A stretch of DNA of 54,211 bases from an uncultured bacterium (GTDB taxonomy: Bacteria > Patescibacteriota > Minisyncoccia > Moranbacterales > GWC2-37-73), in assembly GCA_903885965.1 (NCBI GenBank), contig CAISKQ010000058.1, positions 1 through 54,211 of the forward strand, written 5' to 3'. Below are positions 2,252 to 11,385 of this stretch, in pieces. How positions within the stretch are numbered: the first letter of the stretch is position 1; each line of letters begins with the position of its first letter. A program made the translations under genes and the position numbers. The notes beneath the pieces were generated by a model, which made no database searches, was not told the DNA's origin, and saw only the letters and a program-made list of their open reading frames with translations.

Positions 2252-5200
2252 TTATTCTTGATCTTTTTCCCACTTTTTTCCTTCAAATGTTTGATACAGC
2301 AATGGAAAAATGATGAGTGTTAAAACAGTTGAAACTGAAAGTCCAAATATAATTGCCCAAGCCAAGCCTTCCCAAACTGGATCTGCAATGATAGTCAGTG
2401 AGCCTAAAATTGCCGTAAGGGATGTTAGCAAAATTGGAAGTAATCTGACACGTCCTGCTTCCATTAAAGCTTCCACGAGTGGCATTTTGCGCTCCTTGAG
2501 TTCATCGAGATATGCAAGATATATAATAGCGTTTTTCACCACAATACCAGCCAATGCAATAACTCCAATCATAGATGTGGCATTGAAATATGTTCCCTTG
2601 GTTGCGCCTAGGATTGCAAATCCAACAAGTACACCAATCAAAGCTAATGGGATTGTTGCCATTATCAGGAGTGGAACTACGACAGAACGAATCTGAATAA
2701 CCAAGACGAAATATATAAGAAGTAATGCTACAGCCATGGCTGTGCCAAGGTCACGGAAAATTTCAAGCGTAAGTTTCCATTCTCCATCAATGCGAACATC
2801 CACATTTTGACCAGCTGTATTCGTGTAGGTCATTCCTAATGGTGACCAAGATGTTATTTTTCCACTTCCATCACTGAGATGATATCCAAACAGTTTTGGA
2901 AAAAGATCAAACACGGCATACATCACACTTCTTGCTCCCATTTCTCCGCTGACATAAACAACTTGCTGCCTAGCGTCCGTGGCAATTTCACTTTGAGCTG
3001 CAAGAGGTTGTTCAATTAGTAGTTCAGATATTGGAACAGTAGCTCCTGTTGAACTTTTTACGGTGATATGTGAAAGGTCATTAATATCGGTGCGATCAGA
3101 TTGTTGCATGCGCAAAATTACAAATTGTTGTTCGGCTTGACGATCACCATCAGTCAATGTTGTTTGGTAGCGCGCAACATTTATGCCTGATAGTGCAGCA
3201 TGCAGAGTTTCAACAATTGTCGCTGGCGCAACTCCAATTCGGCCTGCTTTTTCAATATCAACTTTGTACTGTTTTTCAATTGATCTTTGGGGTGAAGATG
3301 TTTTCAGATCAACAATTCCAGAAATATTACTAGCTATTTGCTGCAAATCTTTGGCAGTAGAATCTAGTAGTTGTTGGTCATCTCCTTGAACTTTTAGAAA
3401 AAATGTTGAGCGCACAGGTGGTCCTGGTGGATCTTCCACAACGGTTATTTTTGCTCCACCCTCATGCATAAGAACCTCTTGATTTAGTGTGTTGCGTAGG
3501 CGCAGAGCAATTTGCTCGGATGTTTCGCTACGCTGAGTATGCGCGGTAAGATTTATTTTTAATGTTGACTGATTTTCTTGAGAGCGCATAAAGCTGCCTT
3601 TGAAAAGTCCATTAAAATCAGATATTGGAGCTGTGCCAATAAAACTTTCAACACTCGTGACTTCTTTTGAGTTGAGTGATGCCTTTTCCAATTCAGTGGA
3701 CACTTCATTTGTTTTGGCGTAAGTGGTTCCACTTGGCATATCCAAATAGATGTAGAATTGTTCTTTGTTAGCCTTTGGCAACATACGGAATTGCACTATT
3801 CTAAATAGAGGTAAAAGCAAAGAAAGAAATAATAAGATTGCAGCCGAAGCTAGTACGATATTTTTCTTTCGTTTATTTTTTGCAAGATCTCCAATTAATT
3901 TTGCGTAGCGATTTTCAACTTTATGAATTGCTTTCACAAAAACATTTTCTTTTTCTTCAGCCTTATGTGAGGAAAACATGCCAGTAAGTGCTGGATTAAT
4001 AGTAAAAGCAAAAAACAAGGATACTAACAATGTGACGGAAACAAAGAAGGGAATAGGACTCATATATGGTCCCATCATACCACTCACAAACGCCATAGGA
4101 ATAAAGGCGAGCAGAATTGTGATTGTAGACATAAACACACCAACTCCAACTTCATCAACTGCTTGGATAATCAGAGTTGATTTATGCTTGCCAGGATTAT
4201 TCTTGATTGTTCTGTGCACATTTTCAATAATCACAATGGCATCATCAACCAGAAGTCCCAATGCTAAAATGAGCGCGAAAAGCGTAATGCGATTTACGGT
4301 TTGACCAGCTAGTAATCCGATTCCAAAAGAAGTTAAAAGTGTAAGTGGAATGGAGATAGCTACAATAAGTGAGTTTCTTATTCCAAGAAAAGCCATCAAA
4401 ATAATTACCACAATAACAATTGAAAGGATTAGATGTTTGGTAAGAGTGAATATTTCATCATGTGCAGTTTCTCCATCATCTCTCATTATCGAAAAATTAA
4501 CTGATGAAAATTGGCTTTGTTTTTGCACAATAGCAAGTTTTTCTCGAACTGCACTTGTCACACTGCTGATATTGGCACCTTTAATTTTTGCAATTGTGAC
4601 GTAGGCTGCATTTTTGGGATCAGAATTTTTTTCTGCAACATGAACATTACTGGTTATTTCTCCTGGTCCTTGTGTGATTGTTGCCACATCGCCAAGGGTA
4701 AGTGGCTTGTCTTGATTTGGAATCAAAACAACATGCGCAGCATCATCAATTGAGGTAATGCTACCGTTAATTCTTAAAGTTTCAGTATCACCATCATTTT
4801 TTAGTGGCTCAGCCGTATAGATGCCGTTTGAAGCATTGAGCATGCCAATTACATCCGAAACAGCTAAATGATATTGTGATAATTTTTCTGCATTTAATTC
4901 TATTTGCAGATTATTGCTAAGTCCACCAACCACGACTACTTTTGAGGTGCCATCCACTAATTTTAGCTGATCAGCTAAGTTGAATGCTAAACTTCGCAGA
5001 GCTTCAGGAGAGCGCACGTCTGATGTTAATGCTATGGAGATAATTGGAACATCATCAGGATCCAGAGTTGTCATGGATGGATCACTGGCTCCAATCGGTT
5101 TTTGAAACATGTTGTCCTTAAGTTTTTGGGAAAGTGATATTTTTGCATTTTCGGCTGGCGTTCCAACTTTAAATTGCACCATGGTAGCGGCCTGGCCACC

Positions 5201-5533
5201 ATCAAACGAATGAGAAATGAGTTGATCAACATTAGGAAGCTCGCTTATGGCATCTTCCATGGGGCGAGTGACAAGTTCTTGAACTTGCTGGGCATTAGCT
5301 CCAGGGAGAGATGTTGTGATGGTAAAAGCTGGTGCAACAATATCAGGATTATAGGCTTTTGGCATTAAGATGAAACTGCCCACTCCCCAAGCCACAATGA
5401 AAAGCATGACTAAAATATTTAGTTCCTTATTTTTTACAAAGAGACTGGCCATCTTTCCAGCAAGACCTAATCTTTTTGGATGTTCTTGATTTGGCATATT
5501 AATTTGATTCATAAGGTTTTGTGGCTGATCCAT
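2252..5533 (-). CDS. RND-family efflux pump, HAE1/AcrB-like
   Basis: At 1093 residues it has normal RND length. It shows a first membrane helix near residues 38-57, a large porter domain, a block of helices around 360-540, a second porter domain, and a final block of helices. The motif GLLVDDAIVIIENVHR carries the paired Asp of the proton-relay helix, as in AcrB-type drug pumps; CusA-type metal pumps normally differ here. Substrate is therefore not decided by sequence, but the CsoR-type operator upstream suggests metal or sulfur stress. The start at 5533 lies 35 bp inside the membrane-fusion gene; ATGs at codons 8 and 13 also overlap it, so translation is probably coupled. No outer-membrane channel gene is nearby. 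Confidence 0.93.
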   Translation of the reverse strand: MDQPQNLMNQINMPNQEHPKRLGLAGKMASLFVKNKELNILVMLFIVAWGVGSFILMPKAYNPDIVAPAFTITTSLPGANAQQVQELVTRPMEDAISELPNVDQLISHSFDGGQAATMVQFKVGTPAENAKISLSQKLKDNMFQKPIGASDPSMTTLDPDDVPIISIALTSDVRSPEALRSLAFNLADQLKLVDGTSKVVVVGGLSNNLQIELNAEKLSQYHLAVSDVIGMLNASNGIYTAEPLKNDGDTETLRINGSITSIDDAAHVVLIPNQDKPLTLGDVATITQGPGEITSNVHVAEKNSDPKNAAYVTIAKIKGANISSVTSAVREKLAIVQKQSQFSSVNFSIMRDDGETAHDEIFTLTKHLILSIVIVVIILMAFLGIRNSLIVAISIPLTLLTSFGIGLLAGQTVNRITLFALILALGLLVDDAIVIIENVHRTIKNNPGKHKSTLIIQAVDEVGVGVFMSTITILLAFIPMAFVSGMMGPYMSPIPFFVSVTLLVSLFFAFTINPALTGMFSSHKAEEKENVFVKAIHKVENRYAKLIGDLAKNKRKKNIVLASAAILLFLSLLLPLFRIVQFRMLPKANKEQFYIYLDMPSGTTYAKTNEVSTELEKASLNSKEVTSVESFIGTAPISDFNGLFKGSFMRSQENQSTLKINLTAHTQRSETSEQIALRLRNTLNQEVLMHEGGAKITVVEDPPGPPVRSTFFLKVQGDDQQLLDSTAKDLQQIASNISGIVDLKTSSPQRSIEKQYKVDIEKAGRIGVAPATIVETLHAALSGINVARYQTTLTDGDRQAEQQFVILRMQQSDRTDINDLSHITVKSSTGATVPISELLIEQPLAAQSEIATDARQQVVYVSGEMGARSVMYAVFDLFPKLFGYHLSDGSGKITSWSPLGMTYTNTAGQNVDVRIDGEWKLTLEIFRDLGTAMAVALLLIYFVLVIQIRSVVVPLLIMATIPLALIGVLVGFAILGATKGTYFNATSMIGVIALAGIVVKNAIIYLAYLDELKERKMPLVEALMEAGRVRLLPILLTSLTAILGSLTIIADPVWEGLAWAIIFGLSVSTVLTLIIFPLLYQTFEGKKWEKDQE

Positions 5534-6608
5534 TGATTAAATATTGTTGACCCTCAGTCACAATTTTTTGATTCGCGACTAAACCTTCTGTCACATCGAT
5601 CAGACCACTATGTTCCGAGCTTGTTTTTATTGATTGTTCTTTGGCAATGTTTTTATCATTTACAACAAAAACAATTTGATCTCCTCCACGAGAAACGATT
5701 GCATTTCTTGGAATTGAAACAGCTTCCTGCGAGCGTGGAATTAAAATCTGACCATGTAGAAAATCTCCCAAATAAATAGTATTAGAGACATCGTCTATAT
5801 GTATGCGAAGGAGTGTTTTTAAACTTTGTGTATCACTGCCAGCAGAAACAGCGGTTATTACGCTAGAAACAGGTTGTCCATTTGAGGTTTGCATTGTTGC
5901 AATTGTTCCGACTGTGATATTTCGTCCATCAGTTGCTGAAACATAAGTTTCAATTTCTTTGCTATTTTGGGTACTAATGCTAACAAGTGGCATCGAAAAG
6001 TTTGCAAAACCACCTTCGCGTCCATAGACAGTTGTTATTGTTCCTGCAAATGGAGCAATTAATGTAGAATTATTTCTGCCAGCCTGAGCAATGCCTAAAG
6101 CTCCTTGAGCTGCAATTAATTGATCTTTGGCTGCTTGAATTTGGAGATCGCGTCCACGTTTGGCACTTTTTGTTGCCTCACTATTTGAACTGGAATCATT
6201 TTTAGCTTGATCAACAAGCTGGTTATAATATTTTTTGCTATCATCTAATGTTTTGGAAAGAGCATCAACACTTGATGAAGCTGCTGCAAGCTGAGCATCA
6301 GAAACATTCGCATCGATTGTTGCAAGCACATCTCCTTTTTTAACTAATTCTCCTTCATGCTTAAATATGCGCAAAATTCTGCCACTGGCCATTGGTGCAA
6401 TATCAGCTCTGCTTTCTCCCCGAACAAAGCCAGAGATTTCCAAGGGCATATTTTTATCAGCCTCTCTTGCAATAACAATTTTCACTGGCTGAACTGATGA
6501 TGTATTTTCATTAGCATTGCTATGCATTCTTAATAAAAATGTTGCCACTATTATAATAGCGACCACTCCTATTGCGGAGTATCTCTGTTTTGATGTGATC
6601 CGTTGCAT
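5499..6608 (-). CDS. RND membrane fusion protein (AcrA/HlyD family)
   Basis: The 369-residue protein has an N-terminal anchor (residues about 10-27), a biotinyl-lipoyl-like half motif (IAPMASGRILRIFKHEGELVKKGDVLATID), a coiled-coil hairpin of about 80 residues, the returning lipoyl half (LIAPFAGTITTVYGREG), then beta-barrel and membrane-proximal domains. These are the parts of a periplasmic adaptor linking an RND pump to an exit duct. It is the promoter-proximal gene of the two-gene unit and is read from the CsoR-type promoter at 6667-6701. In a monoderm CPR cell it cannot dock on a TolC-like channel, so its role may be substrate capture or pump stability. Confidence 0.92.
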   Translation of the reverse strand: MQRITSKQRYSAIGVVAIIIVATFLLRMHSNANENTSSVQPVKIVIAREADKNMPLEISGFVRGESRADIAPMASGRILRIFKHEGELVKKGDVLATIDANVSDAQLAAASSSVDALSKTLDDSKKYYNQLVDQAKNDSSSNSEATKSAKRGRDLQIQAAKDQLIAAQGALGIAQAGRNNSTLIAPFAGTITTVYGREGGFANFSMPLVSISTQNSKEIETYVSATDGRNITVGTIATMQTSNGQPVSSVITAVSAGSDTQSLKTLLRIHIDDVSNTIYLGDFLHGQILIPRSQEAVSIPRNAIVSRGGDQIVFVVNDKNIAKEQSIKTSSEHSGLIDVTEGLVANQKIVTEGQQYLINGSATKPYESN

Positions 6609-6666
6609 GTTTTTTAGAATTATTTATTAATTAGTTGTAAACAAAAAAGCCTTTTGGCTCATGTAT

Positions 6667-6701
6667 TTGACATAATACCCTAGGGGGGTATATACTGTCA
6701 A
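6667..6701. promoter_or_regulatory. Overlapping divergent promoters around one CsoR/CstR-type operator
   Basis: The plus strand shows TTGACA (6667-6672), 18 bp, TATACT (6691-6696). The minus strand shows TTGACA (6701-6696), 18 bp, TATTAT (6677-6672). Both spacers are filled by the same motif, ATACCCTAGGGGGGTATAT (6675-6693), which closely resembles the CsoR operator of Bacillus copZA. One bound repressor would therefore silence the RND/MFP unit and the DUF2892/csoR unit together. The cognate repressor is probably the protein at 7731. Confidence 0.88.
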
Positions 6702-6731
6702 GTAGGCATTCCAAATAGATTTTATTTAGCC

Positions 6732-6757
6732 GAAAACAATTTTAAGCCTAATTCGTT
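6732..6757 (+). promoter_or_regulatory. Candidate ECF-sigma promoter (GAAAAC-N16-CGTT)
   Basis: GAAAAC at 6732-6737 is followed after 16 bp by CGTT at 6754-6757, with ATAT after it. Near-identical elements precede 8492 and 11140. The form matches ECF promoters such as the sigma-W type (TGAAAC-N16-CGTA). Spacing is one base longer than in the other two copies. Confidence 0.5.
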
Positions 6758-6794
6758 ATATTTAGTAATTAATTAATATTTTCAAAACAAACAA

Positions 6795-7685
6795 ATGAAA
6801 AACGAAGGAATTATTGAAAGAAGCATTCAAATAACCATTTCAGCAGCCTTATTTCTGGGCGCATTTTTCTGGGTGGGTGGAATTTGGCAGATAGTGCTTT
6901 TTATTATGGCTTTTGCTGTTGGTATATTTGCAATAATTGGATTTTGTCCGCTGTACGCACTTATTGGCAAAGGAGCATCATGTCCAATTGAAAAACTGAC
7001 CAAGGGGAGAATCATATTTCTTTTCATTTACGCATTTGTCTTATTGGCAGCTGGATCATACGGAAGTATCTTTTTCACTAAAAAAATATTTGTGGAAGAT
7101 TTTAATGCAATGAATAAAGATTACAAGCAGACACTTTTTGAGACTGGCCAAGAGAAAAGAAGTCAGTCTAAGGAAAATTATGACAAACTGGTTGTTTCAT
7201 ATGCAATTTTTGAAAACAAATATTTGGCTTATCATCCTTATTCTTTGCGAGCAGATGCATCATTTAATAGTGATTTAAAAAAGATTGAAGGAATTATTTT
7301 GGGAGCAAAAGATGGTGTTTATAATGGAGATCTGAAAGCGATGCATTTGGAATTTGAAAAAGTGCGTCCAATCACGCAGGATATTTTGAAACGCAATGGT
7401 TTTTCAATGCTGGCAATAACATTGGTGGATTTTCACGATTCAATGGAAAAAGTTCTCGATGGGGCAAATGCAAAAGATGCAGCAAAAGTGATTGCAACCT
7501 ATGATGAGGCTAATGCTAAATTGTCAGCAGTTGAGCAAGAGGCTAATGACAGCGAAATTCAAGCAATTCGCAAAAATCTTGATGAAATTTTGCAGCTTGC
7601 CAAGGATGGAAAATTAGATCAATTGCCAGCAAAAGCAGGAGAACTTAAGAGTAGTTTCGTGAAAGTGTATCTGGTTCGTGGCTAA
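6795..7685 (+). CDS. DUF2892 membrane protein with extracytoplasmic four-helix domain
   Basis: Residues 1-60 form a DUF2892/YgaP-type helical hairpin ending in the typical GFCPLY motif. A third membrane helix lies at about 75-95. Residues 100-296 are a charged, all-helical domain with a four-helix-bundle look, including DFHDSMEKV, and would lie on the opposite face of the membrane from the hairpin's loop. DUF2892 hairpins accompany rhodanese and persulfide proteins in many bacteria, and four-helix bundles often bind metals, but no ligand set is certain here. It is read from the CsoR-type promoter and possibly also an ECF-type promoter. The fusion is unusual; I do not recognise a named family for the full protein. 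Confidence 0.7.
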   Translation: MKNEGIIERSIQITISAALFLGAFFWVGGIWQIVLFIMAFAVGIFAIIGFCPLYALIGKGASCPIEKLTKGRIIFLFIYAFVLLAAGSYGSIFFTKKIFVEDFNAMNKDYKQTLFETGQEKRSQSKENYDKLVVSYAIFENKYLAYHPYSLRADASFNSDLKKIEGIILGAKDGVYNGDLKAMHLEFEKVRPITQDILKRNGFSMLAITLVDFHDSMEKVLDGANAKDAAKVIATYDEANAKLSAVEQEANDSEIQAIRKNLDEILQLAKDGKLDQLPAKAGELKSSFVKVYLVRG

Positions 7686-7702
7686 TTTTTTTGATCGTGG
7701 TG

Positions 7703-7708
7703 TATAAT
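7703..7708 (+). promoter_or_regulatory. -10 box of a promoter for the csoR-like gene
   Basis: TATAAT lies 22 bp before the ATG at 7731, giving a leader of about 16 nt. No good -35 is seen. This would let the repressor be made independently of the operon promoter. Confidence 0.55.
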
Positions 7709-7730
7709 AAAATCATAGAGATCCAATTTT

Positions 7731-7994
7731 ATGGCAAAGGCAAAGAAAACTGAGAAAGAGATGCGAGAACAGTTGTCTAACAGGATTGTTCGCATTGAAG
7801 GGCAGCTAAAAGGTATTCATCGCATGATCAAAGAAGAAAAGGAATGTGTTGATATTATTATGCAAATATCCGCCATCAGATCTGCTGTTTCTAATCTTGG
7901 CGTGGAGTTGTTGAAAAATGATCTCGTTTGTAAACAGCAAGGAAAAAAGACTATCGATGAATCATATTTGAAAACACTATTTAAAATAAGTTAA
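7731..7994 (+). CDS. csoR: CsoR/CstR-family (DUF156) repressor
   Basis: An 87-residue all-helical repressor with the family signature NRIVRIEGQLKGIHRMIKEE and QISAIRSAVSNLG. The family binds DNA as a tetramer and releases it when the ligand binds. Cys39 and Cys67 occupy the two conserved sensor positions. The residue four before the second Cys is Asn63, where copper-sensing CsoR has His. CstR, the persulfide sensor, also lacks that His, and two DUF2892 proteins flank the gene, so a sulfane-sulfur signal is possible. The G-tract operator at 6675-6693 is its likely target. The family call is secure; the ligand is open, so the symbol is provisional. Confidence 0.9.
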   Translation: MAKAKKTEKEMREQLSNRIVRIEGQLKGIHRMIKEEKECVDIIMQISAIRSAVSNLGVELLKNDLVCKQQGKKTIDESYLKTLFKIS

Positions 7995-8017
7995 TTAATT
8001 TTTTTATTAATAATCAT

Positions 8018-8212
8018 ATGAAAAACGAAAGTGGTCTGGATCGCATAATAAGAGTTGTTTTGGCGGTTGTATTTTTTGTGCTTGGTGCTTATGTATTCAC
8101 TGGTGTGTTGAGTGTTGTCGCATATGTTTTAGCAGTTGTTATGCTTTTCACTGCAATAACAGGTTTTTGCTTGCTATATAAGATTTTTGGAATTAATACT
8201 GATAAGAAATAA
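8018..8212 (+). CDS. Small DUF2892 (YgaP transmembrane-like) protein
   Basis: This 64-residue protein is almost entirely a two-helix membrane hairpin. It starts MKNESGLDRIIRV, the usual opening of DUF2892 proteins, and ends in TGFCLLYKIFGI, where the usual Pro of GFCPLY is Leu. It is the second DUF2892 protein in the operon. It follows the csoR-like gene by 23 bp and is separated from the ferredoxin by one base, so the three are likely one transcript. In other bacteria such proteins accompany rhodanese-type sulfur transferases; no rhodanese is visible here. The biochemical role is unknown. Confidence 0.85.
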   Translation: MKNESGLDRIIRVVLAVVFFVLGAYVFTGVLSVVAYVLAVVMLFTAITGFCLLYKIFGINTDKK

Positions 8213-8213
8213 G

Positions 8214-8399
8214 ATGAAAGTTGTAAAAGTAGATCCAGCGAAATGCCCTCAAGATCATGTGTGTCCATTGATCAGGATTTGCCCAGTTGGTGCAATAAGC
8301 CAAGACGGTTTTTCAGCTCCAGCAATTGATCAGGAAAAATGCATTGCTTGTGGCAAATGCGTGGCAACATGTCCATATCAAACGCTTTCTTTGGAATAG
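8214..8399 (+). CDS. Small ferredoxin-like Fe-S protein
   Basis: Starting at the ATG that follows the previous stop by one base, the protein has 61 residues; a longer form from TTG at 8187 is less likely. The second half holds a standard 4Fe-4S motif, Cys43-x2-Cys46-x2-Cys49-x3-Cys53-Pro. The first half has only three Cys (11, 17, 23) spaced by five residues, with CP at the last, so the first cluster is atypical or absent. It is probably a soluble electron carrier. The obvious partner is the membrane polyferredoxin encoded next. A terminator follows at 8428. Confidence 0.85.
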   Translation: MKVVKVDPAKCPQDHVCPLIRICPVGAISQDGFSAPAIDQEKCIACGKCVATCPYQTLSLE

Positions 8400-8427
8400 G
8401 ATGCAATTGAAAAATATACCTTTAAAA

Positions 8428-8453
8428 ATGCGACTCCATGAGTCGTATTTTTT
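8428..8453 (+). terminator. Rho-independent terminator after the ferredoxin gene
   Basis: A nine-pair stem (8428-8436 with 8440-8448, one G-U pair) has a CAT loop and is followed by a T run. It separates the csoR operon from the polyferredoxin gene. Confidence 0.85.
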
Positions 8454-8454
8454 A

Positions 8455-8480
8455 TGAAAACAAATAAATTTAAATCCGTT
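8455..8480 (+). promoter_or_regulatory. Candidate ECF-sigma promoter (TGAAAAC-N15-CGTT)
   Basis: TGAAAAC at 8455-8461, 15 bp, then CGTT at 8477-8480, preceded by TC and followed by ATAT. The same arrangement with the same spacing precedes 11140. The site starts just after a terminator, so it is well placed to start a new transcript. Confidence 0.6.
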
Positions 8481-8491
8481 ATATCTACTGA

Positions 8492-9667
8492 ATGCCAACT
8501 TTTCTAAAAAATATAATTTTTAAAAGCAAAAAAATGAAAAATGTTTTCACGCCCAGAAGAATTTCCCAAGCAATAATACTGGGAATTGTTTTATTTTTGA
8601 CAATCAGTCACTTAAGATTTGGTATTGAAAAAGCAGCTCCAATTGATGCATATTGTCCTTTTGGTGCAGTAGAAGGATTTTTTACATATATAACCACGGG
8701 ACAATACCTACAAAGAATTTATACCAGTTCATTTGTTTTGATGGGAATTGTGTTTTTGCTTACTTTGGTTTTTGGCAGAGTTTTTTGTTCATTCTTGTGT
8801 CCACTTGGAGCAATTCAGGAATGGATACGCGCACTTGGCAGAAAAATCGGAATAAAAAAAGATTTGGAGTTGCCAGTCTGGCTCGATAAATATGCCAGAT
8901 ATTTGAAATACATTATTTTGGCGGTTATTGTGTATTTTTCATATAAAGCTGGAGACTTAGTTTTTCGCGCATATGACCCATTCAATGCGCTTATGCATTT
9001 GGGTGAAGAATTTGATGCTAAGGTTGCTGGTTATTCAATATTGGGAATTTTACTTGTAGTTTCACTTTTTTCAAAAAACATTTGGTGTAGATATTTCTGT
9101 CCTTTTGGAGCAATGTTGGGAATCATCAGAAAAATAAGTCCTTTTAAGATAAAGAGAAATGAAAGCAGTTGCATCGGTTGTGGAAAATGCGACAAGGTTT
9201 GTCCGGCAGGTTTGAATATCTCCAATGTTAAAGAAGTTAATTCTGCAGATTGTATCAGTTGCTTGGGTTGCGTTAAAAATTGTCCAAATAGCAGTTTGAA
9301 AGCAACAACTTTCGGCAAAGAAATTCCAAAGAAAAATTTTGGTTGGATGATTATTTTGGCATTTTTTATTCCACTTGGAATTCTAATGCTGACACCTCTT
9401 TGGCAAACCAAGGCTCCATCAAATATTGTTACAAATACTGGCGAGCTGAATCTTGAAAACCTGCGAGGCAGTAACACCTTGCAATATGTGCTTGATACAA
9501 CAAAAGTCCTTTTTTCAGTTTTTCAAGATAAATTAAAATTGCCAGCTGATATCGATAAAACGATGAAGTTGAAAGATATTGGAATAAAATATCAAATAAA
9601 AAATTCAGATGGAGCACTTATTGAGGCTGAAGATTTCCGTAAAGTTGTGGAAGAATTTGCAAAGTAG
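8492..9667 (+). CDS. Membrane polyferredoxin, NapH/NosR/CcoG-like
   Basis: The 391-residue protein has about five membrane helices. It carries the family's Cys-Pro motifs CPFGA (Cys55), Cys99-x3-Cys103-Pro and Cys199-x3-Cys203-Pro, then two full 4Fe-4S motifs (Cys227/230/233/237 and Cys254/257/260/264). A C-terminal region (LENLRGSNTLQYV onward) repeats a fold often attached to these proteins. Relatives move electrons across or along the membrane; CcoG is linked to Cu(II) reduction. In this copper-like context it may reduce metal or feed electrons from the small ferredoxin. The start may instead be the ATG at 8534 (MKNVFTPRR), which would leave a leader of about 47 nt from the ECF-type promoter. 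Such a protein is unusual for a cell thought to lack respiration. Confidence 0.88.
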   Translation: MPTFLKNIIFKSKKMKNVFTPRRISQAIILGIVLFLTISHLRFGIEKAAPIDAYCPFGAVEGFFTYITTGQYLQRIYTSSFVLMGIVFLLTLVFGRVFCSFLCPLGAIQEWIRALGRKIGIKKDLELPVWLDKYARYLKYIILAVIVYFSYKAGDLVFRAYDPFNALMHLGEEFDAKVAGYSILGILLVVSLFSKNIWCRYFCPFGAMLGIIRKISPFKIKRNESSCIGCGKCDKVCPAGLNISNVKEVNSADCISCLGCVKNCPNSSLKATTFGKEIPKKNFGWMIILAFFIPLGILMLTPLWQTKAPSNIVTNTGELNLENLRGSNTLQYVLDTTKVLFSVFQDKLKLPADIDKTMKLKDIGIKYQIKNSDGALIEAEDFRKVVEEFAK

Positions 9668-9701: not shown

Positions 9702-9707
9702 GAAGAT

Positions 9708-10283
9708 ATGAGCGAAAAAGAACTGCAAACAGATGCTGAATTAATAGAATTGGCTAAACAGGATCCTGAACTGTTTGGGCTTTTGATGGAGCGTTATCAA
9801 GTTCAACTTTCTCATTACATCCGGCGTTTGACTCAACTTGGACAAGACGATGTGCAGGATTTGCTTCAGGAAGTTTTCATTAAAATTTATCAAAAATTGA
9901 ATGAATATGATGAGGTGTTGAAATTTTCCAGTTGGGCATATCGAATTGCCCACAATCATATCATCGACTATTTTCGCAAAGTTGGCGCTCGTCCTAAATT
10001 TAATTCACTGGAAGACTATGAATGGGAGAAAATTATTGGAGCCAGTGTTCACATTGAAAAGGATATTATGAATAGAGATTGCGTGGAAAAAGTTAAGGTA
10101 TGTATTTCACAGTTACCAATCAAATACAAAGAAGTTTTGATTTTGAGATTTGTTGAAGAAAAGGAATACGAGGAAATCATGGATATCTTGAAAAAACCAA
10201 AGGGATCAGTTGCAACATTGATTGCCAGAGGAAAAGAAACGCTTATTAGGGAGTTAAAAGAGCAGAATATTAATTGTTTTTAA
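9708..10283 (+). CDS. ECF-type RNA polymerase sigma factor
   Basis: From the ATG at 9708 the protein has 191 residues. Region 2 is clear: DDVQDLLQEVFIKIYQKL, then FSSWAYRIAHNHIIDYFRK. Region 4 is clear too: QLPIKYKEVLILRFVEEKEYEEI followed by the helix-turn-helix GSVATLIARGKETL. Regions 1.1 and 3 are absent, as in ECF factors. The next gene, four bases downstream, encodes a membrane protein that probably holds it inactive. Candidate target promoters lie at 6732, 8455 and 11070. Its own promoter looks like an ordinary extended -10 type, so it may not be self-activated. Confidence 0.93.
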   Translation: MSEKELQTDAELIELAKQDPELFGLLMERYQVQLSHYIRRLTQLGQDDVQDLLQEVFIKIYQKLNEYDEVLKFSSWAYRIAHNHIIDYFRKVGARPKFNSLEDYEWEKIIGASVHIEKDIMNRDCVEKVKVCISQLPIKYKEVLILRFVEEKEYEEIMDILKKPKGSVATLIARGKETLIRELKEQNINCF

Positions 10284-10287
10284 ACTT

Positions 10288-11067
10288 ATGAAAGATTTAA
10301 TCAAAGAAACTATTGAAAAGATTAAAGATCAAGGTATTGCTCCTGAGCCACGCTGGAAATATCTAGTGAAAAAATACGGCATGTGGGCTGTCTTTGGTGT
10401 GATTATTTTATTGGGTGCAATTTCTTTTTCAATCGCTTTTAATTTGCTTAGTCAGTTAGACTGGGATTTGTATCGTTTTGCTCATCAAAGCGCAGTTTTG
10501 TATTCGCTGTCACTACTTCCATATTTTTGGATAGTAACTATAGGAATATTACTTGCATTGGCATTCTTTGATCTGCGAAAAACAGAAACTGGTTACAAGT
10601 ATAGTTGGCTAAAAATGTCGCTAGTATCAATAGGGGGCATAATTGTGATAGGTTTTGTTTTTTTCTTGATCGGCCTAGGTGGAAAATTAAATGCGTTTCT
10701 AATAAAAGATATTCCATATTATGGTCAGCACATGATGATGACCAAGGAGTCACAGTGGATGCAGCCAAATAGTGGATTTCTTTCTGGGACACTAACTATT
10801 ATTTCTAATGGTAAGTTGGAAATAAATGATCTAAATGGGCAAAAATGGAATGTTATTTTGGATGAAAAAACTCTTATTAGGCCAGCAGTTAATATCGCAA
10901 AAGGAGAAATGATTAAGATAATAGGCTCAAAGAAGGATGCGAACAATTTTGAGGCTTTGGAAATACGTCCCTGGATGGGCCAAGGTATGATGAATGGCTC
11001 TGGCGCTGGTCGCAGTAGCGGAATGATGAATAATGGCAGTGGCAGAGACATGATGAATGGAAATTAA
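10288..11067 (+). CDS. Probable membrane anti-sigma factor with Met-rich sensor domain
   Basis: The 259-residue protein has a short cytoplasmic N-terminus (about 30 residues), three membrane helices (about 33-55, 75-95, 105-130) and an outer C-terminal domain. That domain starts with QHMMMTKESQWMQ, contains an OB-like beta region (GTLTIISNGKLEINDLNG to FEALEIRPW), and ends in a Gly/Asn-rich tail with three MM pairs. Met clusters of this kind bind Cu(I). Its position right after the ECF gene and its topology fit an anti-sigma that senses a metal outside the cell. I see no classical zinc anti-sigma motif in the short N-terminus, so the sigma contact is inferred from gene order. Confidence 0.65.
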   Translation: MKDLIKETIEKIKDQGIAPEPRWKYLVKKYGMWAVFGVIILLGAISFSIAFNLLSQLDWDLYRFAHQSAVLYSLSLLPYFWIVTIGILLALAFFDLRKTETGYKYSWLKMSLVSIGGIIVIGFVFFLIGLGGKLNAFLIKDIPYYGQHMMMTKESQWMQPNSGFLSGTLTIISNGKLEINDLNGQKWNVILDEKTLIRPAVNIAKGEMIKIIGSKKDANNFEALEIRPWMGQGMMNGSGAGRSSGMMNNGSGRDMMNGN

Positions 11068-11139: not shown

Positions 11140-11385
11140 ATGAATAAAGGAATTGCAATCGGTGTGCTAAGTTTAGCTGTTCTTGGGACAGCAGTGTTTG
11201 CAAGTGGTGCATTTGCTTCAGTTGGAAACAGAGGTCAATTTGGATCAAATTACTCACCAGAGCGACACGCTCAAATGATGGGAAGTGGTCAGGGTCGTGG
11301 CATGATGGGCTCACAAAGAGGTCAAAATGCTGGAGGAAATTTTGTCGATAAAAATGGGGATGGAATTTGTGATCACATGCAATAA
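11140..11385 (+). CDS. Secreted Met-rich small protein, candidate metal binder
   Basis: The 81-residue product has a signal peptide (MNKGIAIGVLSLAVLGTAVFA...) and a short Gly/Gln-rich mature part with HAQMMGSGQGRGMMGS and an acidic DKNGDGICD stretch that resembles a calcium-binding loop. The MM pairs echo the tail of the membrane protein upstream. The composition fits extracytoplasmic Cu(I) or Ag(I) binding. It has its own ECF-type promoter and a strong terminator, so it can be expressed alone. No named family is recognised; the function is inferred from composition and context. Confidence 0.7.
   Translation: MNKGIAIGVLSLAVLGTAVFASGAFASVGNRGQFGSNYSPERHAQMMGSGQGRGMMGSQRGQNAGGNFVDKNGDGICDHMQ

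Follow-up and report, generated by a model that had tools for sequence, protein, structure and literature searches.

Overlapping divergent promoters governed by a single repressor are already known from PacrA/acrR of Escherichia coli, a bidirectional promoter at which an RND pump operon lies opposite another gene and one repressor, AcrR, controls both (PMC12825309). Within the CsoR family, TTHA1953 of Thermus thermophilus controls the divergent pair TTHA1422/TTHA1423 (PMC10318464), and FrmR occupies its operator with two tetramers (PMC4528141). The CstR and YrkD persulfide sensors are two-cysteine members of the same family that repress sulfur-stress genes (PMC9774590, PMC9405070, PMC9918477), and CsoR itself is the copper repressor of the Mycobacterium tuberculosis cso locus (PMC10318464). 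A literature search for a CsoR protein acting at overlapping divergent promoters found none.

Here we describe a 35-bp element in which two opposed predicted promoters enclose one CsoR-type operator. It lies in a contig of 54,211 nucleotides (the window) from an uncultured member of the Moranbacteria, bacteria of very small size. As at PacrA/acrR, an RND pump operon lies on one side. Unlike PacrA/acrR, where the -10 box itself is shared, the -35/-10 pairs here interlock around a spacer operator and the predicted transcription starts lie approximately 38 bp apart; furthermore, the opposed gene there encodes the TetR-type repressor, whereas the constant opposed gene here encodes a DUF2892 protein and the repressor is of the CsoR type, often encoded elsewhere. 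With TTHA1953 the system shares an apparent response through cysteine reactivity, a regulator encoded away from its targets and a divergent gene pair, but the TTHA1953 operator (TACNNTACNNNNGTANNGTA) lacks a G/C tract and its targets are sulfur-oxidation genes (PMC10318464). The element resembles the M. tuberculosis cso operator in its class, with a G/C tract, and in its position over the -35/-10 core promoter; there CsoR acts in one direction and uses a His ligand, whereas here there are two directions and no His.

Geometry and conservation of the element

The element (TTGACATAATACCCTAGGGGGGTATATACTGTCAA; Table 1) comprises a predicted rightward promoter, TTGACA-18-TATACT, and a predicted leftward promoter, TTGACA-18-TATTAT, each with a sigma70-like score of 11/12; these are the top two promoter-like sites in 5500-9000. 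Transcription would start near 6703 rightward and near 6665 in the RND direction. The sequence-only reading had described facing TTGACA boxes with each -10 box overlapping or abutting the opposite -35 box. The boxes do overlap, sharing exactly one base on either side, 6672 on the left and 6696 on the right. That reading had also placed one operator within shared 18-bp spacers; the operator is single, as claimed, but the spacers overlap only over 6678-6690 (13 bp), and the operator at 6675-6691 runs into both -10 boxes through its outer ATA/TAT arms. Because a single CsoR-type operator is common to two opposed promoters, co-control by steric block, which had been proposed from the start, is borne out as a prediction by geometry and conservation, and the geometry likewise agrees with the earlier expectation that polymerases would exclude one another at the two predicted promoters. 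The element is a candidate bidirectional promoter in that one short pseudo-symmetric sequence carries promoter elements on both strands, 11/12 each, while its -10 boxes are separate (6672-6677 versus 6691-6696) rather than shared.

Table 1. Features of the divergon in the window.
Feature	Position	Strand	Basis or remark
RND permease (ACR_tran)	2252-5533	-	multidrug models score above CusA/CzcA; below every NCBIfam cut-off
RND periplasmic adaptor (membrane fusion protein)	5499-6608	-	TIGR01730 over cut-off
Small hairpin followed by a T-run, RND transcript leader	6647-6660 (within 6641-6660)	-	retained in most relatives
Divergent promoter-operator element	6667-6701	.	sequence, promoter scan, exact geometry in 10 order genomes
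Predicted rightward promoter, -35 TTGACA	6667-6672	+	promoter scan; invariant in 10/10 aligned genomes
Predicted leftward (RND) promoter, -10 TATTAT	6672-6677	-	promoter scan; invariant in 10/10 aligned genomes
CsoR-type operator ATACCC-TAGGG-GGGTAT (ATACCCTAGGGGGGTAT)	6675-6691	.	motif search; across the phylum the same motif precedes csoR genes
Predicted rightward promoter, -10 TATACT	6691-6696	+	TATACT/TACACT/TACAAT/TATTAT in 10-genome alignment, always TA...T
Predicted leftward (RND) promoter, -35 TTGACA	6696-6701	-	promoter scan; invariant in 10/10 aligned genomes
DUF2892 (YgaP-like TM) protein with C-terminal all-helical domain	6795-7685	+	first gene of rightward operon
CsoR-family repressor	7731-7994	+	PF02583
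Second, short DUF2892 protein	8018-8212	+	profile search
Small ferredoxin	8217-8399	+	67% identical paralog of the C1 ferredoxin that also has the operator
Polytopic 4Fe-4S (Fer4_5, NapH-like) membrane protein	8492-9667	+	probably in operon
ECF-type sigma factor	9705-10283	+	probably in operon; follows DUF2892 gene/operon in 6/10 divergons compared
Membrane protein with Met/Gly-rich tail	10288-11067	+	adjoins sigma factor; no Pfam match

An order-wide search with the pattern TTGAC-N2-6-TACCC-N5-GGGTA-N2-6-GTCAA revealed matches in 10 of 131 genomes, spread over three families; the spacing was the exact 35 bp in all ten, each time between the RND adaptor gene and a DUF2892 gene, and the reversed pattern gave no matches in the same 131 genomes. 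In the ten-genome alignment the mean pairwise identity of the element is 95.5%, as against 54% and 41% for the 35-bp blocks that flank it. Ranked by identity, the top 35-column window of the intergenic alignment coincides exactly with the element; windows that do not overlap it average 39% and reach at most 56%. This pattern indicates that the 35-bp element is under selection. Conservation is far stronger evidence than the shuffle or genome-count figures, among them that the window holds one fully overlapping opposed pair of promoters scoring at least 11/12 in 54 kb and that TTGACA-N23-TGTCAA has exactly one match in the 1.27-Mb genome.

In two genomes (G002 and G005) the rightward -10 box is weakened to TACACT, which lowers the promoter total to 10/12. 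Searching the order with the adaptor protein recovered 13 orthologs, ten of them with the exact element; in G013 the element is 34 bp long (TTGACATAATACCCCATGGGGTATATATTGTCAA), a 1-bp loss that leaves both spacers at 17, and in G016 the operator and the RND-side promoter are retained and the DUF2892-side TTGACA is lost at the site, so two-way control would not be universal. The outgroup-like adaptor of G684 is 47% identical and has no DUF2892 neighbour, and there is no operator at that adaptor locus. Among 384 genomes sampled from the class, matches were confined to members of this order, and when 380 genomes sampled from the phylum were searched for the full element with up to three mismatches, the window itself and a single-direction csoR promoter were the sole matches. 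The nearest named relatives of the window genome are Candidatus Moranbacteria/Moraniibacteriota metagenome-assembled genomes, and all the evidence presented here derives from the sequences of such assemblies. One divergon (L127, from G015) is longer than the others by about 250 bases in the stretch that separates the element from the DUF2892 gene, at approximately +51 to +378 from the element.

Flanking genes

The rightward genes are separated by gaps of only 4-92 bp and therefore likely form one operon. The earlier description of a DUF2892/csoR operon named two genuine members of this unit but stopped short, since the predicted operon continues through the ferredoxin, Fer4_5 and ECF sigma factor genes and the neighbouring gene. 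Next to the ECF sigma factor, the proteins encoded at 10288-11067 and 11140-11385 carry Met/Gly-rich (GRGMMG-like) stretches; they are conserved in several divergons and have no Pfam match. The helical C-terminal domain of the first DUF2892 protein is conserved (FHDSME motif), likewise without a Pfam match, and a fold search with the predicted structure of this protein (mean pLDDT 83) gave no PDB match at E ≤ 0.001 and brought up nothing more specific than generic helical bundles. The same domain is found in Patescibacteria outside the order (G124 and G332). On the RND side, the leader hairpin begins approximately 5 nt into the predicted transcript, and in most relatives its stem is kept and its loops are changed; its role may be that of a leader hairpin or an attenuator.

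The repressor and its likely signal

The product of 7731-7994 belongs to the CsoR/RcnR family (DUF156), scoring 69.1 bits with PF02583, whose cut-off is 22.8. It retains two cysteines, C39 and C67, but does not carry the ligand set of Cu(I)-sensing CsoR proteins: the His of HXXXC, the copper-binding motif of CsoR (PMC4528141), is replaced by Asp64, and the stretch between the cysteines is one residue shorter, the residue missing before C67. Its relatives at thioredoxin loci also lack the His. The C39/C67 pair without His is the dithiol arrangement of CstR (PMC9774590, PMC9405070), with a Cys-Cys spacing of 28 compared with 29 in CstR of S. aureus and 31 in that of E. faecalis. However, the best PDB match is CsoR (4m1p), and the CstR chains 7mq1 and 7mq3 match only over residues 18-64, more weakly than 4m1p; unlike the CstR and YrkD systems, this divergon contains no recognisable rhodanese, SQR or persulfide dioxygenase, the targets expected for CstR. 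For both of these reasons, the closest solved relative and the lack of recognisable persulfide enzymes, we do not file the protein as a CstR.

Phylogenetic analysis placed the three RND-linked CsoRs within the thioredoxin-locus group (97/83 branch), the split between copper-type and thioredoxin-type clades being weakly supported (62/91). A csoR gene is linked to the divergon in 3 of the 10 element genomes, namely the window genome, G694 and G743, the latter two of which carry another csoR as well. Six genomes (G002-G005, G015 and G017) have no csoR in the divergon and a single CsoR gene beside trxB, and G007 has two csoR genes, neither in the divergon. The sequence-only reading had cast the 7731 product as the dedicated repressor of the element; this assignment is not supported as it stood, and a dedicated cis-encoded regulator was rejected, because 6/10 element genomes carry only a trans-encoded csoR, so that the repressor must act in trans there, and because the window genome holds a second paralog of the same clade (C30, beside C58, the 7731 protein). 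We infer that the repressor usually acts in trans; in the window genome both paralogs may bind there.

The operator is of the CsoR type as defined in PMC10318464: a quasi-palindrome that overlaps the core promoter and contains a run of four or more G or C. A search of the window for ATACCCNNNGGGGGTAT with up to three mismatches returned only 6675-6691, plus the same site on the other strand. In the whole genome, exact TACCCNNNGGGGGTA occurs at three sites, the element and one each on C1 and C57. The C1 site (C1:17413; L001 1500) is enclosed by the -35 and -10 boxes that precede a ferredoxin-thioredoxin operon, and a one-mismatch site precedes the second csoR (C30), itself upstream of trxB. These positions suggest a small regulon made up of the RND pump, ferredoxin-thioredoxin and csoR-trxB. 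At C57:41621 (L002 1500), a perfect operator match stands approximately 110 bp before an apparently unrelated gene, whose translation resembles shikimate dehydrogenase.

The CsoR label of the sequence-only reading and its proposed Cu(I) test, in which persulfide was the other ligand, had also suggested copper as a likely signal. A sensor that answers Cu(I) or another soft metal, with the same element and the same double repression, would accord with the CsoR-like operator and fold, with the closely similar operator that copper-type CsoRs of the same class use before csoR-copA, and with the Met-rich stretches of the 10288-11067 and 11140-11385 products. We nevertheless consider it unlikely, and copper sensing was rejected as the leading reading. 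The HXXXC His is missing from both paralogs, as from their thioredoxin-linked clade, in which the second Cys also lies one residue closer, and no operator was found at the CopA locus of the same genome with up to three mismatches allowed. The permease scores higher with multidrug than with CusA/CzcA models, and elsewhere in the genome operator sites precede ferredoxin-thioredoxin and csoR-trxB. A CstR-like dithiol sensor of sulfur or thiol stress is the better interpretation on residues and gene neighbours, as two cysteines without His, thioredoxin and ferredoxin partners and DUF2892 would fit persulfide or thiol stress.

Two promoters or one

Single-direction csoR promoters provide a reference for the two halves of the element. 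At approximately 18 copper-type csoR loci across Patescibacteria the operator sits in the -35/-10 spacer, the usual layout, in two registers (-35 at -7 to -10, and -10 at +14/+16), and the window element combines both registers, one per direction. At the thioredoxin-type csoR loci of Moranbacteria the operator follows the -10 box and TTGACA lies at -26/-27.

These loci bear on a second alternative, which we also regard as improbable, that only one promoter is used, the second TTGACA having arisen through the symmetry of the operator or forming the outer half-site of a larger palindrome bound by the repressor or another factor. G016, which retains only the RND-direction promoter, and G007, in which the element is nearly palindromic, are in keeping with it. 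Yet single-direction loci have TTGACA on one side only, at promoter spacing; at thioredoxin loci the box moves with the promoter, whose -10 box comes just before the operator; both TTGACA boxes are invariant in ten genomes, in which the rightward -10 box varies only as TA...T; and the 1-bp loss in G013 leaves both promoters with a 17-bp spacer. Because TTGACA shifts with the promoter rather than with the operator when loci are compared, the boxes are best read as -35 boxes, and the outer half-site was rejected. The weakest alternative, that a low-GC intergenic region merely came to resemble two promoters and an operator, draws on the fact that promoter-like matches across 5500-9000 are not more numerous than in shuffles (13 versus 13.3), but its probability is negligible and chance origin was rejected, since 0 of 60 dinucleotide-preserving shuffles of the window yielded a fully overlapping opposed pair of at least 11/12 and the element is the best-conserved stretch in ten genomes.

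Proposed mechanism

Taken with its conservation, the architecture makes it probable, in our judgement, that fused opposed promoters are served by one operator, that a dithiol CsoR-family repressor shuts both operons, that thiol modification releases it and that the promoters then compete. The element would be an opposed sigma70-type pair around one quasi-palindromic CsoR-family operator, whose outer arms, ATACCC and GGGTAT, overlap the starts of the predicted -10 boxes, the flanking TTGACA on each side completing a promoter. Bound to the spacer, the reduced dithiol repressor would exclude RNA polymerase from both promoters and so silence together the leftward RND adaptor/permease operon and the rightward DUF2892-csoR-DUF2892-ferredoxin-Fer4_5-ECF sigma operon; a binding mode like that of the two FrmR tetramers is compatible with a large block of this kind. 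The repressor would come off the DNA once C39/C67 were modified, persulfide/reactive sulfur or another thiol oxidant being the most likely agent. Because both promoters are near-consensus, competition between them is likely after release, one polymerase excluding the other; at high activity, opposed polymerases compete at PacrA/acrR, and such competition has been demonstrated for bidirectional promoters (PMC12825309). With csoR inside the rightward operon, negative autoregulation would be added; where csoR is missing from it, the CsoR of the thioredoxin locus would have to act in trans.

More tentatively, and with less confidence than we place in the mechanism itself, the 35-bp symmetric switch kept in three families could be a device by which a dithiol sulfur/redox sensor couples RND export and a membrane electron-transfer/ECF-sigma operon as mutually exclusive outputs, using whichever CsoR paralog is present; the cis element would have stayed in place as the gene for the regulator entered and left the operon.

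Implications

Little is known about gene regulation in Patescibacteria, and a literature search for CsoR regulons or promoter maps in this group found nothing relevant. What appears new here is the interlocked spacer-operator architecture, conserved base by base within an uncultured order, together with a cis element that seems to be retained more stably than the gene for its regulator. A conserved promoter-operator element, a regulator family, a predicted regulon and a residue-based ligand prediction together make a directly testable case, because in vitro assays with the DNA, the two repressors and a heterologous polymerase do not require the host to be cultured. The natural variants (spacers of 18/18 and 17/17, and the one-sided form) also offer a set in which to study polymerase competition at interlocked promoters.

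The CsoR of the window genome is 93% identical to that of G743 (L015), which belongs to another family, and same-genus species lack the divergon csoR (L015, L016 and the window compared). High identity across families together with absence from same-genus species suggests horizontal transfer of the RND-csoR divergon.
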